Shown here piece after piece: positions 46,868 through 52,640 of a stretch of DNA of 64,000 nt. The notes below the pieces were generated by a model, which was given only the letters and a program-made list of their open reading frames with translations, was not told the origin of the DNA and did no database searches. Made by a program: the position numbers and the translations under genes. Position 1 is the stretch's first letter. Each line of letters starts with the position of its first letter. Source of the DNA: Rhizobiales bacterium CCH3-A5 (lineage in GTDB: Bacteria; Pseudomonadota; Alphaproteobacteria; Rhizobiales; Beijerinckiaceae); NCBI GenBank assembly GCA_001556025.1, contig LSIB01000163.1:1-64000 (forward strand). Direction: 5' to 3'.

Positions 46868-48814
46868 TCAAAGGGCCGACCCCTCACCCCTGCCCCTCTC
46901 CCTCCGGGAGAGGGGTTCCCCGCGTGAAATTCCCAGCGCCTTGATCCGTGACGCCAGCGTCGTCGGCCTCACGCCCAGAATCTCCGCAGCACCGCCCGGC
47001 CCGCTGACCTTGCCGGCGGCCGCCGCGAGCGCCGCCTCGATGCTGGCCCTGTCGCGCTCGCGCCTCGCCGCTTCCGTCAGAATGCCGGCACGGACAGGCT
47101 CCTCGCGGGCCTGCAAGGACGGCCTCGCGCGCGCGCTCTCCGGCAGGTCGATGAACAGCCTGCCCTGCCGCGCCAGGATCGCGGCGCGTTCGATGACGTT
47201 CTGCAGCTCGCGGACGTTTCCGGGCCAGTCATAGGCGGTGAGCCGTGCCATGTCGCCCTCGCTCAGCGTCAGCCCCTCGACCTTGAGTTTACGCTGCGCG
47301 CCTTTCAGAAAATGCAGCGCCAGAGCGGGGATGTCGTCGCGCCGTTCGCGCAGCGGCACGGACAGGATCGGGAAGACGTCGAGCCGGAAATAGAGGTCCT
47401 CGCGGAAGCGGCCCTCGCGCACCTCGCGGCGCAGATCGCGGTTGGTGGCTGCGATGAGGCGGACATCGACCTTGCGGGTGCGTTCCTCGCCGACACGCTG
47501 GAACTCGCCCTCCTGCAGCACCCGCAGCAGCTTGCCTTGCAGTTCGAGCGGAATCTCGCCGACCTCGTCGAGGAAGAGCGTGCCGCCATCGGCGAGCTCG
47601 AAGCGGCCGATCCGGTCGCGGAGCGCGCCGGTGAACGCGCCCCGGACATGGCCGAAGAACTCGCTCTCGAAAAGTTCGCGCGGGATCGCGGCGCAATTGA
47701 CCCGGATCAGCGGCCGCGCCCGGCGTTCGCTCGCCTCGTGGATCGCGCCCGCGATAAGCTCCTTGCCGGTGCCGGATTCGCCGGTGACGAGCACGGCGGC
47801 GTCGGTCCTGGCGACCAGCTCGACCTGGCTGAGGATTTTCCGGATCGCGGCTGAGTCGCCGATCACGCCGCGATGGTTGCGCTCGATCGCCATCTCTTCC
47901 TGGAGATAGGCGTTCTCGAGCTGGAGACGCTGGCGCAGACTGTCGACCTCGGCCAGCGCCGCACGCAGCCTCTCGTCGGCCTCATGGCGCTGGCTCACGT
48001 CGCGGAAGACGATGACGGCTCCCGCCAGCCGGCCGCGATCGCGGATCGGCGTCGAGGTGTATTCTACCCAGAAGCCCGAGCCGTCCTTGCGGAAGAATTT
48101 CTCGTTTTCGACATGGTGGACCGCGCCATCGCGGAAGGCGGCATAGATCGGGCATTCCTGCTGAGGATAGGCGCTGCCGTCCGGGCGGTGGTGATGGACG
48201 CTCGCATGCATGTCGCTGCCGACCAGTTCACCCGCCGCCCAGCCCAGCATCGCCTCGGCGGCGGGGTTGACGAAGGTGGTCTTGCCCTCGGCGTTGACGC
48301 CGAAGATGCCCTCGCCGGCGGCGCGCAGGATGAGCTGGTTGCCGCGTTCGATATCCTGGAAAAGCCGCTCGCTGCGCAGCCATTCGGTCAGGCCGCCGCG
48401 CTGATAGGCTTGCGCCTCGGCATCGAGCTCGCGCTTGTGGCGGGCGTCGAGATCGTAGAGCGTCAGCAGCATCAGGAGCGCGGGCTCGCGCGAGAGCACG
48501 ACGCCGGCGCATTCCAGATGCAGGGCGCGGCCCGATGGATGGGCCGGCGTCAGCCCCCGCGTCCACCATGCCCCTTTGGCTAGCACCGCGTCGGTGAAGA
48601 CGGTGAGTTCCGCCATCTGGTCTGGAAACAACGCAAACACGCCCGAGCCGCAGAGCGCCGGCAGTTCGGCCTCCAGCAGCGCGCCTGCCGCATGATTGGC
48701 TCCCAGCACCGCGCCGGTGCGGATGTCGATCACCAGCATCGCGTCGGGCGCGGCGGCGAAGACCGGGTCGGGCGAGGTGGCGAGCAGGGCTGAAGTCCTA
48801 CGAAATTTCGTCAA
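46868..48814 (-). CDS. cynF: Sigma-54-dependent activator of the cyanate operon (CynF-like)
   Basis: A 648-residue NtrC-family enhancer-binding protein. Two PAS domains (about 15-125 and 150-275), a coiled coil (276-312), an AAA+ domain with Walker A GESGTGKE (345-352), the sigma-54 contact loop GAFTGA (392-397) and a Fis-type HTH (about 595-632). There is no response-regulator receiver, so the PAS domains probably sense the signal. The start is a TTG inside operator site 1 and is uncertain; the next Met is residue 26. The last 17 residues are encoded by a repeat hairpin. Divergent from cynABDS. Pseudomonas pseudoalcaligenes has a comparable cynFABDS cluster. Confidence 0.9.
   Translation of the reverse strand: MTKFRRTSALLATSPDPVFAAAPDAMLVIDIRTGAVLGANHAAGALLEAELPALCGSGVFALFPDQMAELTVFTDAVLAKGAWWTRGLTPAHPSGRALHLECAGVVLSREPALLMLLTLYDLDARHKRELDAEAQAYQRGGLTEWLRSERLFQDIERGNQLILRAAGEGIFGVNAEGKTTFVNPAAEAMLGWAAGELVGSDMHASVHHHRPDGSAYPQQECPIYAAFRDGAVHHVENEKFFRKDGSGFWVEYTSTPIRDRGRLAGAVIVFRDVSQRHEADERLRAALAEVDSLRQRLQLENAYLQEEMAIERNHRGVIGDSAAIRKILSQVELVARTDAAVLVTGESGTGKELIAGAIHEASERRARPLIRVNCAAIPRELFESEFFGHVRGAFTGALRDRIGRFELADGGTLFLDEVGEIPLELQGKLLRVLQEGEFQRVGEERTRKVDVRLIAATNRDLRREVREGRFREDLYFRLDVFPILSVPLRERRDDIPALALHFLKGAQRKLKVEGLTLSEGDMARLTAYDWPGNVRELQNVIERAAILARQGRLFIDLPESARARPSLQAREEPVRAGILTEAARRERDRASIEAALAAAAGKVSGPGGAAEILGVRPTTLASRIKALGISRGEPLSRRERGRGEGSAL
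46893..46915. repeat. Hairpin repeat encoding the end of cynF
   Basis: CCCCTCTCCC and GGGAGAGGGG pair perfectly over 10 bp with a TCC loop. The element lies inside the 3' end of cynF and accounts for its basic EPLSRRERGRGEG tail, showing a dispersed repeat read as protein. A related hairpin is at 21-43. Confidence 0.7.
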
Positions 48815-48851
48815 CGAACTACGATTTTTCGTGATTTACGAGATTTCGTCA
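48798..48851. promoter_or_regulatory. Three palindromic enhancer sites for the cyn activator
   Basis: Three copies of a 16-base motif YTACGANWTTTCGTSA: 48798-48813 (core ACGAAATTTCGT), 48819-48834 (core ACGATTTTTCGT) and 48836-48851 (core ACGAGATTTCGT). They lie 55-108 bases upstream of the -24 element at 48906, the usual distance for a sigma-54 activator. Site 1 overlaps the proposed cynF start, suggesting autoregulation. Site 2 departs from perfect symmetry. Confidence 0.85.
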
Positions 48852-48905
48852 ATCGGCGATCGCTCACAAGCCTTTGATTCTTCGCAGATGCGAGACTGCG
48901 ACGGT

Positions 48906-48921
48906 TTGGCCCGGGGCTTGC
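48906..48921 (+). promoter_or_regulatory. Sigma-54 (-24/-12) promoter of cynABDS
   Basis: TGGCCCGGGGCTTGCT fits TGGCACG-N4-TTGCW with a single mismatch (C for A) and exact GG-to-GC spacing. It lies 55 bases before the cynA start and downstream of three activator palindromes, which is the geometry of a sigma-54 promoter. No competing sigma-70 promoter is obvious. Confidence 0.85.
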
Positions 48922-48976
48922 TACCGACGAATCGAGTTTCCGCCGCCCGATCGATCAGCCCGGAGGACAAAAGCCC

Positions 48977-50353
48977 ATGGCCCTGTTCAAGAACCCCTTC
49001 GACGCCAATCGCCGCATGACCCGCGGCTGCGACTGCGGACGGCACGAAAGCCAGAGCGAGCACGAGCGCGCCATTCATGCCGAGGCCGTGAACGCCGCGG
49101 CTTCCGACGAGGGTCGTTACCGCCGCGTGGTCGAGAACGCCGTGATGCGGGCGCTGTTCCCGCAAGACGAGGCGCGCCGCCTCTTCCTGAAGAGCGCCGG
49201 CGCCGCGACCGCGCTCGCCGCGATCTCCTCGCTCTTCCCGATCGGGCTCGCGACCGAGGTCTTCGCCCAGGCGGTTCCCGAGAAGAAGGACCTTAAGGTC
49301 GGCTTCATCCCGATCACCTGCGCGACGCCGATCATCATGGCCGCGCCGCTCGGCTTCTATTCCAAGCACGGCCTCAACGTCGAGGTGATCAAGACCGCCG
49401 GCTGGGCCGTGGTTCGCGACAAGACGATCAACAAGGAATACGACGCCGCCCACATGCTCTCGCCGATGCCGCTGGCCATTTCGATGGGCGTCGGCTCGAA
49501 CCCGATTCCGTATACGATGCCGGCGGTCGAGAACATCAACGGCCAGGCGATCACCCTGGCGACAAAGCACAAGGACCGGCGCGATCCGAAGTCGTGGAAG
49601 GGCTTCAAATTCGCCGTTCCCTTCGACTATTCGATGCACAACTACCTGCTGCGCTACTATCTCGCGGAAAACGGCATCGACCCCGATAGCGACGTGCAGA
49701 TCCGCTCGGTGCCGCCTCCGGAGATGGTCGCCAATCTGCGTGCCGACAACATCGACGGCTTTCTCGCGCCCGATCCGGTCAACCAGCGCGCAGTCTTCGA
49801 CGGTGTCGGCTTCATCCACATCCTGTCGAAGGAAATCTGGGACGGACACCCGTGCTGCGCCTTCGCGGCATCGCGCGAATTCGTGACGCAAACGCCCAAC
49901 ACCTACGCCGCTCTGCTCAAGGCGATCATCGACGCGACCGCCTTCGCCACGAAGGCGGAGAACCGCAAGCAGATCGCGGAGGCGATCGCGCCGGCGAACT
50001 ACCTCAACCAGCCGGTGACCGTGGTCGAGCAGGTGCTGACCGGCACCTATGCCGACGGTCTCGGCAACATCAAGCGCGACCCCAAGCGCATCGATTTCGA
50101 CCCCTTCCCCTGGGAGGCTTTTGCGATCTGGATCCTGACGCAGATGAAGCGCTGGGGTCAGGTCAAGGGCGACATCGACTACAAGACCGTCGCCAATCAG
50201 GTCTTTCTCGAGACCGACACGGCGCGGCTGATGAAGGAGGTTGGCCTCACTCCGCCAACCAGCGGCTCCAAGACCATCGTCGTCATGGGCAAGACCTTCG
50301 ATTCGACGAAGCCCGAAGATTACATCAAGAGCTTCGCGATCAAGCGGACCTGA
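48977..50353 (+). CDS. cynA: Cyanate ABC transporter binding protein (NrtA/CmpA family)
   Basis: A 458-residue binding protein with GGAGGAC before ATG 48977. Residues 67-98 form a Tat-type signal (ARRLFLKSAG, cleavage after FAQA), but it is preceded by a 66-residue N-terminal region with CDCGRHESQSEH, which is unusual for an export signal. The mature domain has KVGFIPITCATPI and PYTMPAVENINGQAI, as in nitrate/bicarbonate/cyanate binding proteins. Linkage to cynS identifies cyanate as the likely ligand. First gene of the operon. Confidence 0.9.
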   Translation: MALFKNPFDANRRMTRGCDCGRHESQSEHERAIHAEAVNAAASDEGRYRRVVENAVMRALFPQDEARRLFLKSAGAATALAAISSLFPIGLATEVFAQAVPEKKDLKVGFIPITCATPIIMAAPLGFYSKHGLNVEVIKTAGWAVVRDKTINKEYDAAHMLSPMPLAISMGVGSNPIPYTMPAVENINGQAITLATKHKDRRDPKSWKGFKFAVPFDYSMHNYLLRYYLAENGIDPDSDVQIRSVPPPEMVANLRADNIDGFLAPDPVNQRAVFDGVGFIHILSKEIWDGHPCCAFAASREFVTQTPNTYAALLKAIIDATAFATKAENRKQIAEAIAPANYLNQPVTVVEQVLTGTYADGLGNIKRDPKRIDFDPFPWEAFAIWILTQMKRWGQVKGDIDYKTVANQVFLETDTARLMKEVGLTPPTSGSKTIVVMGKTFDSTKPEDYIKSFAIKRT

Positions 50354-50358
50354 CGCCG

Positions 50359-51204
50359 GTGACCGCCTCGCTCAACCTCCGCGCGATCGTCCTGTCGCTC
50401 GCCATCCTGTTCGTTTTCCTGTCTGGCTGGCACATCGCCGTCCAGTCAGGGGGCGGGGGGCCGGCCGCCAACATCGACCCGGAATACGCCAAGCTGCTTG
50501 GCCAGCAGGTCACGCAGGGCAAATCGGCGATGCCCGGCCCGCTCGATGTCGGCAAGACGCTATGGGGTCACCTCGCCAACCCGTTCTACGACAAGGGCCC
50601 CAACGACAAGGGGCTCGGGGTCCAGCTCGCCTATTCGCTCGGCCGCGTGCTGCTCGGCTATCTCCTCGCCGTACTGGTCGCGATCCCGCTCGGCTTCCTG
50701 ATCGGCATGTCGCCGCTGATCTCGAAGGCGCTCGATCCGTTCATCCAGGTGCTCAAGCCGATCTCGCCCTTGGCGTGGATGCCGCTGGCGCTCTACACGA
50801 TCAAGGACTCGGGCATCTCGGCGATCTTCGTGATCTTCATCTGCTCGGTCTGGCCGATGCTGCTGAACACCGCCTTCGGCGTCTCTGCCGTCCGAAAGGA
50901 ATGGCTCAACGTCGCTCGCACGCTGGAGGTCGGCCCGATCAGGCGCGCCTTCACCATCATCCTGCCCGCCGCAGCCCCGACGATCCTGACCGGCATGCGG
51001 ATTTCCATCGGCATTGCCTGGCTCGTCATCGTCGCGGCCGAAATGCTCGTGGGCGGCACAGGCATCGGCTACTTCGTCTGGAACGAGTGGAACAACCTCT
51101 CGATCACCAATGTCATCGTCGCGATCTTCGTGATCGGCGTGATGGGGATGATTCTCGACCAGACGCTGGCGCGCTTCCAGCGCGCCGTCACCTATCCGGA
51201 TTGA
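50359..51204 (+). CDS. cynB: Cyanate ABC transporter permease
   Basis: A 281-residue permease of the NrtB/SsuC type with six to seven helices. The start is taken at GTG 50359, 5 bases after the cynA stop, because the first helix (LNLRAIVLSLAILFVFLSGW) begins right after. The EAA loop is in LEVGPIRRAFTIILPAAAPTI, which docks the ATPase. It should move cyanate across the inner membrane together with CynD. Confidence 0.91.
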   Translation: MTASLNLRAIVLSLAILFVFLSGWHIAVQSGGGGPAANIDPEYAKLLGQQVTQGKSAMPGPLDVGKTLWGHLANPFYDKGPNDKGLGVQLAYSLGRVLLGYLLAVLVAIPLGFLIGMSPLISKALDPFIQVLKPISPLAWMPLALYTIKDSGISAIFVIFICSVWPMLLNTAFGVSAVRKEWLNVARTLEVGPIRRAFTIILPAAAPTILTGMRISIGIAWLVIVAAEMLVGGTGIGYFVWNEWNNLSITNVIVAIFVIGVMGMILDQTLARFQRAVTYPD

Positions 51205-51209
51205 GCACG

Positions 51210-52103
51210 ATGACGACCCAAAGCGACAAATTCGTCTCGATTGAGGGCATCGCGCGGCGCTATCCGAAAGCCGGCGGCGGCACGACGACGGTGTTCGAAG
51301 ACCTCTGGTTCTCGATGAGGAAGGGCGAGTTCGCCTGCATCATCGGCCATTCCGGCTGCGGCAAGACGACCGTGCTGAACATCCTGAACGGGTTGGATGC
51401 GCCGGATAATGGCGCGGCCATCGTCGACGGCCGCGCGATCGAGGGCCCCTCGCTCGACCGCGCCGTGATCTTCCAAGGCCACTCCCTGCTGCCCTGGCGC
51501 ACCGTGCTCGGCAACGTCTCCTATGCCGTCGCCGCCCGGCATCGCGACTGGCCGAAGGCGAAGGTCACCGCTCATGCCATGGCATTCATCGAGAAGGTCG
51601 GGCTGAAGGGCTCGGAGCTGAAGAAGCCTTCGGAGTTGTCGGGCGGCATGAAGCAGCGCGTCGGCATCGCGCGCGCGCTCTCGATCGAGCCGAAAATGAT
51701 GCTGATGGACGAGCCCTTTTCGGCGCTCGACGCGCTGACGCGCGGCACGCTGCAGGACGAGGTCCGCCGCATCTGCCTGGAGACCGGCCAGACCGCCTTC
51801 ATGATCACCCATGATGTCGACGAGGCGATCTATCTCGCCGACCGCATCGTGCTGATGACCAACGGACCGCAGGCGATGATCGCCGAGATCGTCGAGAACC
51901 CGCTGCCGCGCGACCGCAAGCGCACCGAGGTGCACCACCACCCGGATTACTACGCGATCCGCAACCACCTGATCGACTTTCTCGTGGTCCGCTCCAAGAC
52001 CTTCAAGGACGCTGTGCCCGACGGCTACGACCGCCGCCATCCGCCGGTGGTGCGGCCGGGCGCGGATGATTCCGGGCCCAATGCCGGCCGCCAGGCTGCG
52101 TGA
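51210..52103 (+). CDS. cynD: Cyanate ABC transporter ATPase
   Basis: A 297-residue ATPase of the NrtD/SsuB type: Walker A GHSGCGKTT, signature LSGGMKQR, Walker B MLMDEPFSALD, H-loop MITHDVDEA. The C-terminal 50 residues form the extension with DRKRTEVHHHPDYYAIRN typical of nitrate/cyanate ATPases. It lies 5 bp after cynB and 48 bp before cynS. Confidence 0.92.
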   Translation: MTTQSDKFVSIEGIARRYPKAGGGTTTVFEDLWFSMRKGEFACIIGHSGCGKTTVLNILNGLDAPDNGAAIVDGRAIEGPSLDRAVIFQGHSLLPWRTVLGNVSYAVAARHRDWPKAKVTAHAMAFIEKVGLKGSELKKPSELSGGMKQRVGIARALSIEPKMMLMDEPFSALDALTRGTLQDEVRRICLETGQTAFMITHDVDEAIYLADRIVLMTNGPQAMIAEIVENPLPRDRKRTEVHHHPDYYAIRNHLIDFLVVRSKTFKDAVPDGYDRRHPPVVRPGADDSGPNAGRQAA

Positions 52104-52151: not shown

Positions 52152-52640
52152 ATGAAGCGCGAAGAACTCACCGAGAAGATCCTCGACATCAAGCGCGAGA
52201 AGGACTGGAGCTGGAAGCACATCACCTCTGAGATCGGTGGCATGTCCGAGGTGCTGATCGTCGGCGCGCTGCTGGGCCAGATGAAGCTGCCCAAGCCCTT
52301 GGCTAAGGCCGCCGCCGAGCTCTTTGGCCTGAGCCCGGTCGAGGAGCGCATGCTCAACGAGGTGCCCTATCGCGGCACGGGTACGCCGATGCCGCCGACC
52401 GACCCGCTGATCTACCGCTTCTACGAGATGGTGATGGTCAACGGCCCCGCGTGGAAGGCGCTGATCGAGGAGGAGTTCGGCGATGGCATCATGTCGGCGA
52501 TCGACTTCAACGTCGCCTTCGAGCGCGAGCCCAACCCGAAGGGCGACCGGGTGCGCGTCTCGATGTCGGGCAAGTTCCTGCCCTACAAGTATTACGGCAA
52601 CGAGCAGGGCATCCCGGACTATGGCTTCAAGGAGGCGTGA
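52152..52640 (+). CDS. cynS: Cyanate hydratase (cyanase)
   Basis: A 162-residue cyanase that converts cyanate plus bicarbonate to ammonia and two CO2, allowing cyanate to serve as a nitrogen source and detoxifying it. The catalytic residues R89, E92 and S115 (R96, E99, S122 in E. coli) are all present in LIYRFYEMVMVNG and GIMSAIDF. The N-terminal helical domain is HTH-like. AAGGAGG lies 8 bases before ATG 52152. The family forms a decamer. Confidence 0.97.
   Translation: MKREELTEKILDIKREKDWSWKHITSEIGGMSEVLIVGALLGQMKLPKPLAKAAAELFGLSPVEERMLNEVPYRGTGTPMPPTDPLIYRFYEMVMVNGPAWKALIEEEFGDGIMSAIDFNVAFEREPNPKGDRVRVSMSGKFLPYKYYGNEQGIPDYGFKEA

Follow-up and report, generated by a model that had tools for sequence, protein, structure and literature searches.

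The cynF-cynA region of the window

The window (the whole stretch of 64,000 nucleotides analysed here) carries the genes cynABDS and, divergent from them, the regulatory gene cynF. The 179-bp stretch at 48798-48976 between cynF and cynABDS contains three palindromes followed by a sigma-54 box. The features of the locus are as follows:

46868..48814, minus strand: cynF; PAS-A (residues ~17-121), PAS-B (~165-272), AAA+ domain with GAFTGA, Fis-type HTH; TTG start as listed
48798..48813, plus strand: site 1, palindrome CTACGAAATTTCGTCA, core 48800-48811; closest to cynF; conserved
48819..48834, plus strand: site 2, palindrome CTACGATTTTTCGTGA, core 48821-48832; 21 bp from site 1 (21-23 bp conserved)
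48836..48851, plus strand: site 3, palindrome TTACGAGATTTCGTCA, core 48838-48849; 17 bp from site 2 (17 bp conserved)
48824..48852, minus strand: sigma-70-like TTGACG-17-AAAAAT beneath sites 3 and 2, a possible promoter of cynF; unconserved among relatives
48867..48879, minus strand: IHF-consensus-like AATCAAAGGCTTG, between enhancer and promoter; the only exact WATCAANNNNTTR in the window
48907..48921, plus strand: sigma-54 -24/-12 box TGGCCCGGGGCTTGC, one mismatch to TGGCAC-N5-TTGC
48977..50353, plus strand: cynA, NMT1_2 substrate-binding protein of a cyanate/nitrate-type ABC transporter
50359..51204, plus strand: cynB, ntrB-type permease, above the cut-off; GTG start at 50359 inferred
51210..52103, plus strand: cynD, ntrCD-type ABC ATPase, 288.4 bits against a cut-off of 291.8
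52152..52640, plus strand: cynS, cyanase model, above the cut-off

Family models agreed with the cynABDS order that the sequence-only reading had placed downstream of the palindromes, matching NMT1_2, ntrB, ntrCD (slightly below its cut-off) and cyanase. The divergent PAS-AAA+ (GAFTGA)-Fis activator was also recovered, with matches to a sigma-54 activation domain and PAS, and with GAFTGA in the translation. The Fis-type HTH of CynF scored 19.5 with HTH_8 (cut-off 22) and was kept across the family alignment. PAS-B was a clear Pfam match (residues 160-273), and the N-terminal PAS scanned alone reached 22.3 bits against a Pfam cut-off of 22.6. Both PAS domains were modelled by AlphaFold2 (mean pLDDT of 79 for the whole protein and 87.6 for residues 1-155 alone), and the modelled N-terminal module matched the solved PAS domains of PpsR, FixL, NR(II) and NifL. 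Pfam and the AlphaFold2 model agree with the earlier view that CynF has two PAS domains rather than a receiver; neither the domain models nor the structure model contained the phospho-receiver domain of an NtrC-type response regulator. In addition, His203, His207 and Cys221 of PAS-B were invariant in 42 aligned CynF/NitA sequences and could possibly be a metal or ligand site of a pseudohalide sensor; the metal-site reading is not claimed here, the PDB relatives by sequence being generic PAS domains. A perfect CCCTCTCCC-N3-GGGAGAGGG inverted repeat at 46894-46914 coincides with the 3' end of cynF, coding there for some of the final, poorly modelled residues of the protein.

The three reported YTACGANWTTTCGTSA copies were exact matches at 48798, 48819 and 48836 on the plus strand, and the five further matches listed carry three mismatches each, two of the five being the same sites on the minus strand. 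The core ACGA-N4-TCGT occurs four times in the whole window, three of them inside 50 bp of the cynF-cynA gap; 0.79 were expected per window, and four were reached in 0 of 100 shuffles. The exact -24/-12 spacing described for TGGCCCGGGGCTTGC held, with the GG/GC spacing intact, and the position of this box predicts a cynA transcription start near 48933. Sigma-54 boxes with up to two mismatches numbered 43 in the window (63.8 expected) and are thus not rare by themselves; the box at 48907 is credible because of its position in relatives. For exact WATCAANNNNTTR, 0.24 copies were expected in the window and at least one copy was present in 21 of 100 shuffles.

Conservation of the array at cyn and nit1C loci

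A scan of public genome contigs with CynF found at least 587 relatives, and the 80 best of these (53-73% identity over the best segment) were taken together with the window. Every 4+4 dyad was counted de novo in these 81 upstream regions with the earlier motif unused. ACGA-N4-TCGT was the top dyad, present in 70 of the 81 regions, while in 20 single-base shuffles the leading dyad of each was present in only 7-10 of 81. The runner-up dyads, TCGT-N5-ACGA (52 regions) and TCGT-N9-ACGA (38 regions), correspond to adjacent sites spaced 17 and 21 bp apart. When triples were sought with up to three mismatches in the 24 core bases and with spacings of only 20-24 and 16-18 bp, they were found in 66 of the 81 regions (the best 80 of at least 587 plus the window), at 21+17 (42), 22+17 (15), 23+17 (5), 23+18 (3) and 22+18 (1) bp. 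All three 23+18 triples belong to NitA/nit1C loci, and the distance between sites 2 and 3 was 17 bp in 62 of the 63 other triples, the exception being L060 (22+18).

We also ran a free-geometry test, in which every spacing pair (12-32 bp each) was allowed and 122 upstream regions, from the named loci and two further samples, were reduced to 50 representatives with less than 80% CynF identity. At least 21 of the 24 core bases were reached in 37 of the 50 with spacings free, 36 of them with a single best geometry and one with a tie. The single best geometries at cyn loci were 22+17 (15), 21+17 (11), 23+17 (6) and, at L060, 22+18, and three nit1C loci gave 22+18; that is, 32 of 33 cyn loci with one winning geometry lay at 21-23+17 bp. 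Conservation of the motifs beside cynF orthologues, on which the sequence-only reading had staked its proposal, was borne out, and the palindromes are co-inherited with cynF.

A search by pattern only, for the exact 17-bp doublet, covered 385 alphaproteobacterial genomes (the class of a Bradyrhizobium). The doublet was present in four of them including the seed genome, at one place each, and the backwards control gave none; all four places sit between CynF- and CynA-coding DNA. With one mismatch allowed in 10 chosen genomes, six contained just a single match, at the position already known; the backwards control gave a match in one genome. Furthermore, a NitA query against 398 genomes of the phylum, some of which were also in the first relative set, found relatives in 21 including the seed, and 18 of the 21 had sites: the spacing was 17 bp in 16 and 18 bp in one nit1C locus, and L137 showed just the two outer sites, separated by 40 bp. 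Sites were absent at L144, L146 and L147 in this sample; of these, L146 and L147 are relatives with just one PAS domain and no array. CynB and CynD were present at 62 and 62 of 67 named CynA-bearing loci, with some contigs ending early. The array counts are not independent because the loci are related, and some genomes were sampled twice: L088/L134 and L066 (G003), L089 and L077 (G005), L117 and L127 (G436), and L101 and L131 (G371).

The other 13 of the 50 representatives had fewer than 21 of the 24 core bases in the free-geometry test. Their single best geometry was 22+17 or 23+17 at L036, L050, L056, L071 and L144, and 21 or 22+18 at L067 and L055. Among the 81 regions (best 80 of at least 587 plus the window), 15 lay beyond the three-mismatch limit, including L016 (no upstream DNA) and L057 (cut), which are not assessable. 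Nine of the 13 assessable exceptions keep 21-23+17 bp, with a score that no more than 11 of 1000 shuffles attained in one of two models, and a three-site array of this geometry was absent from the remaining four (L044, L055, L070 and L073). Three loci, L047, L064 and L106, have other letters, RYGC-N4-GCRY (e.g. ATGC-N4-GCAT), at 22-23+17 bp with all three sites kept; in these cases the array geometry appears to have outlasted the letters. The degenerate form RYGM-N4-KCRY was picked after these loci had been seen, and its scores, reached by 1, 0 and 0 of 1000 shuffles, are a guide and not a clean test. L064, L106 and L144 form one clade (99/93).

The genes facing cynF also varied. In seven distinct loci (L072 and L137 taken as one, giving seven rather than eight), cynF faces cynS and a formate/nitrite-channel (FNT) gene, not cynABD; these include L148:6723-8028, L149:2417-3735, L154:7279-8797, L155:6804-8145, L125, L126 and L142, with the FNT identity checked as PF01226 for two proteins and assigned by similarity for the others. 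Its place beside cynS and facing cynF makes FNT a candidate cyanate channel, and our literature search found no paper with the FNT phrase for the cynS-FNT pairing. In L002, L015, L017, L029 and L040 (Methylobacterium/Methylorubrum), cynF faces cynS directly, and the distance from the -24 box to cynS is 157-181 bp.

Full-length relatives numbered 27, in 24 of 298 Pseudomonadaceae genomes; 11 have cyn genes as neighbours and 16 have nitB and nitC. All three sites were present at 22-23+17 bp in nine of the 11 cyn loci, the others being L125 (outer two sites) and L106 (drifted letters). The third site was within one mismatch in six of the 16 nit1C loci, with a spacing of 22-23+18 bp; nine of the 16 had the first two sites only, 22-23 bp apart, and L120 had one site. 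NitA is like CynF in its two-PAS-AAA+-Fis layout (by alignment), palindrome, sigma-54 box and divergent gene, but differs in having 22-23+18 bp where a third site is visible and a box at 97-98 or about 106-108 bp from site 3 rather than 52-89 bp as at cyn loci. The nit1C regulators and L073 formed their own clade (100/100) in an unrooted tree. In L073:1-6000, from Pseudomonas gingeri, the NitA-clade regulator has two sites 41 bp apart, and no cyn or nitB/nitC genes were found in these 6000 positions. Three genomes (G598, G611 and G680) contain both regulators; in G598, the cyn array (L106) has drifted to ATGC-N4-GCAT and the nit1C array (L124) keeps ACGA-type sites, as if insulated.

Promoter phase and the proposed mechanism

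A -24/-12 box with up to two mismatches was present within 120 bp of site 3 in 65 of the 66 three-site regions (from the best 80 of at least 587 plus the window). The phase was assessed on 35 rule-chosen distances among the representatives, measured from the centre of site 3 to the -24 box. The distances at cyn loci were 52, 63-67, 72-78 and 85-89 bp, approximately one helical turn apart, and those at nit1C loci were 97-98 and 108 bp. Phasing reached an R of 0.73 at a period of 11.3 bp, a value reached by 0 of 3000 uniform and 0 of 3000 jittered sets; the set includes a nit1C locus at ~107 bp, and the probability is a guide only, as the loci are related. The best period (11.3-11.6 bp) exceeds 10.5 bp, although a period of 10.5 bp still gave R = 0.64. 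The same phasing was seen in a hand-assembled set of 38 distances that left out the nit1C loci at ~107 bp, and in 25 earlier representatives. The sigma-54 box previously proposed downstream of the palindromes recurs in relatives at a helically phased distance, and this phasing points to a need for the hexamer to be oriented towards the polymerase. Enhancers of bacterial enhancer-binding proteins (bEBPs) usually act through a loop, and IHF may help (PMC4987338, in part). An IHF-like word within one mismatch was present in 8 of 25 representatives against 1.21 expected, a hint that IHF may aid looping at the cynA promoter, and we keep it as a hint because only these 8 of the 25 lie within one mismatch.

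Based on the conserved sites, the three palindromes are very probably the CynF enhancers, and the 179-bp stretch is in all likelihood a complete CynF-dependent sigma-54 control region, with CynF binding and RpoN dependence as its predicted parts. CynF dimers would bind the TTACGA-N4-TCGTAA-type palindromes, centred at approximately -127, -106 and -89 relative to the predicted cynA start. By analogy with the three NorR enhancers, the 21-23+17 bp layout would join the three dimers into one AAA+ hexamer on a fixed DNA scaffold, an assembly that we consider reasonably likely. Cyanate, the presumed ligand, would be sensed by the PAS modules and release the ATPase, and the freed CynF would loop, perhaps aided by IHF, onto the sigma-54 RNA polymerase at the helically phased box and switch on cynABDS. 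The occupied array may then damp cynF expression.

One or two sites might be sufficient, however, with the third a redundant site that tunes affinity and no hexamer scaffold formed. L044 has only two perfect sites, the middle site is degraded in several loci where the outer distance of 38-40 bp is kept, and 10 of 16 nit1C loci have a third site with more than one mismatch, which means that this branch can do without a full set of good sites. At cyn loci, nevertheless, arrays of three with fixed spacing are the rule, and the letter-drifted L047, L064 and L106 keep all three; we regard such redundancy as rather unlikely. The palindromes might also serve another regulator (e.g. a cynF repressor or a nitrogen regulator), with CynF binding elsewhere, and the homologous operon is reported to be repressed by ammonium (PMC6627978, in part), so a second regulator could act here. 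Yet the sites stay with the CynF/NitA family although its targets differ (cynABDS, cynS with the FNT transporter, cynS alone and nit1C). The CynF HTH of the window reads PTTLASR, and loci with Tyr for Ala (PTTL-Y-SR) have more drifted operators, as direct recognition by this HTH would predict (Mann-Whitney p = 0.008, Fisher 0.08, 37 representatives, uncorrected for phylogeny and with partly shared ancestry); three loci with K/R-R-W after the recognition helix have RYGC-type sites. Service to another regulator is accordingly very unlikely in our estimate. About equally improbable is a sigma-70 promoter of cynF, overlapping the array with its -35 in site 3 and its -10 in site 2, as the source of the rigid 17 bp in place of protein geometry: TTGACG-17-AAAAAT falls exactly on sites 3 and 2 in the window, but the same offsets in 24 representatives averaged 2.75/6 for -35 and 2.08/6 for -10, the flanks of site 2 and site 1 read as -35 averaged 3.25 and 2.79, and such a promoter found no support as the general cause of the 17-bp rule, its hexamers being unconserved in these 24.

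With the sigma-70-like pair lying on sites 3 and 2 in the window, a loaded array of CynF dimers could switch cynF off, and occupancy of site 1 or of the array might plausibly repress cynF itself by steric feedback. TTG 48814 is the sole ATG, GTG or TTG upstream of the first PAS of CynF and overlaps site 1; no Shine-Dalgarno-like word precedes it, and residues 1-14 from this start had a pLDDT below 50 in the whole-protein model. An alternative start, CTG 48787, is preceded by AGGA, and the ATG of L001, L003, L004, L006, L036, L046 and L049 falls at the equivalent position. Among 38 listed loci, site 1 lies just upstream of the likely cynF start, not inside the gene, in several (e.g. L003, L010, L012, L026 and L037); in L042 and L052 it may overlap the start, as in the window.

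Relation to known systems and meaning

In CECT5344, a Pseudomonas (Ectopseudomonas) pseudoalcaligenes/oleovorans, cynF is required for the cyanate-induced, ammonium-repressed expression of cynABDS, and the locus, as here, has a divergent sigma-54 activator, the cynABDS order and a sigma-54 box before cynA (PMC6627978, in part). The window encodes an activator of this CynF type: a bEBP with GAFTGA and a Fis HTH and without a receiver, divergent from cynABDS, with a sigma-54 box upstream of cynA. The Pseudomonas relatives L065/L066 have three sites at 23+17 bp. The words palindrome, enhancer and intergenic are absent from the main text of PMC6627978, and the available portions of PMC11049912, PMC5333837 and PMC6368324 name no CynF or NitA operator. 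In the text of 5.39 million open papers, four literal forms of the palindrome matched only one paper, apparently on a Salmonella secretion system, and cyanate together with enhancer binding protein and inverted repeat gave no match. Both the control of cynABDS by CynF and the sigma-54 box have been published before; the conserved operator grammar was not found in print within these searches.

The nearest mechanism is that of NorR, which also has three enhancer sites: its three norVW enhancers are all needed and scaffold a hexamer (PMC2941729 and PMC4987338, both in part). NorR-like three sites at fixed spacing are present at the cynF locus, a likeness of mechanism and not of membership, and the best NCBIfam match of CynF was the NorR model, below its cut-off. 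NorR carries a non-heme iron GAF domain and uses a GT-N7-AC motif (PMC4987338, in part), whereas CynF has PAS domains and ACGA-N4-TCGT; the CynF locus is not a NorR member. FhlA, like CynF, is a ligand-controlled bEBP, and its enhancer CATTTCGTACGAAATG has the same TTTCG/CGAAA half-sites (PMC4987338, in part) but in the opposite order to the CynF sites.

CECT5344 has both the CynF and the NitA systems (PMC5333837, in part). Its cyanase reportedly responds to cyanide as well as cyanate (PMC6627978, in part), and CynABD, CynS and NitC are all increased in a cyanide-bearing residue (PMC5333837, in part). Operators common to CynF and NitA would explain the cyanide response, although the residue may itself contain cyanate. 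We tentatively suggest a spacing code for CynF and NitA, in which geometry (21-23+17 bp for cyanate, +18 bp for cyanide) and helical phase relative to the sigma-54 box would be held tighter by selection than letters because the DNA serves as the template of the hexamer. As the two regulators share one palindrome, cyanide/cyanate cross-talk might occur where both are present, with only the 1-bp step and the promoter distance as insulation; this reading is possible, though we would not call it probable.

The array gives the little-studied activator CynF a likely DNA address, from which its targets may be predicted in other genomes, and it would tie cyanate and cyanide assimilation to one operator family. 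Furthermore, enhancer geometry, helical phase and letters vary separately across these naturally occurring loci, and the templating of a bEBP hexamer by DNA thereby becomes directly testable.
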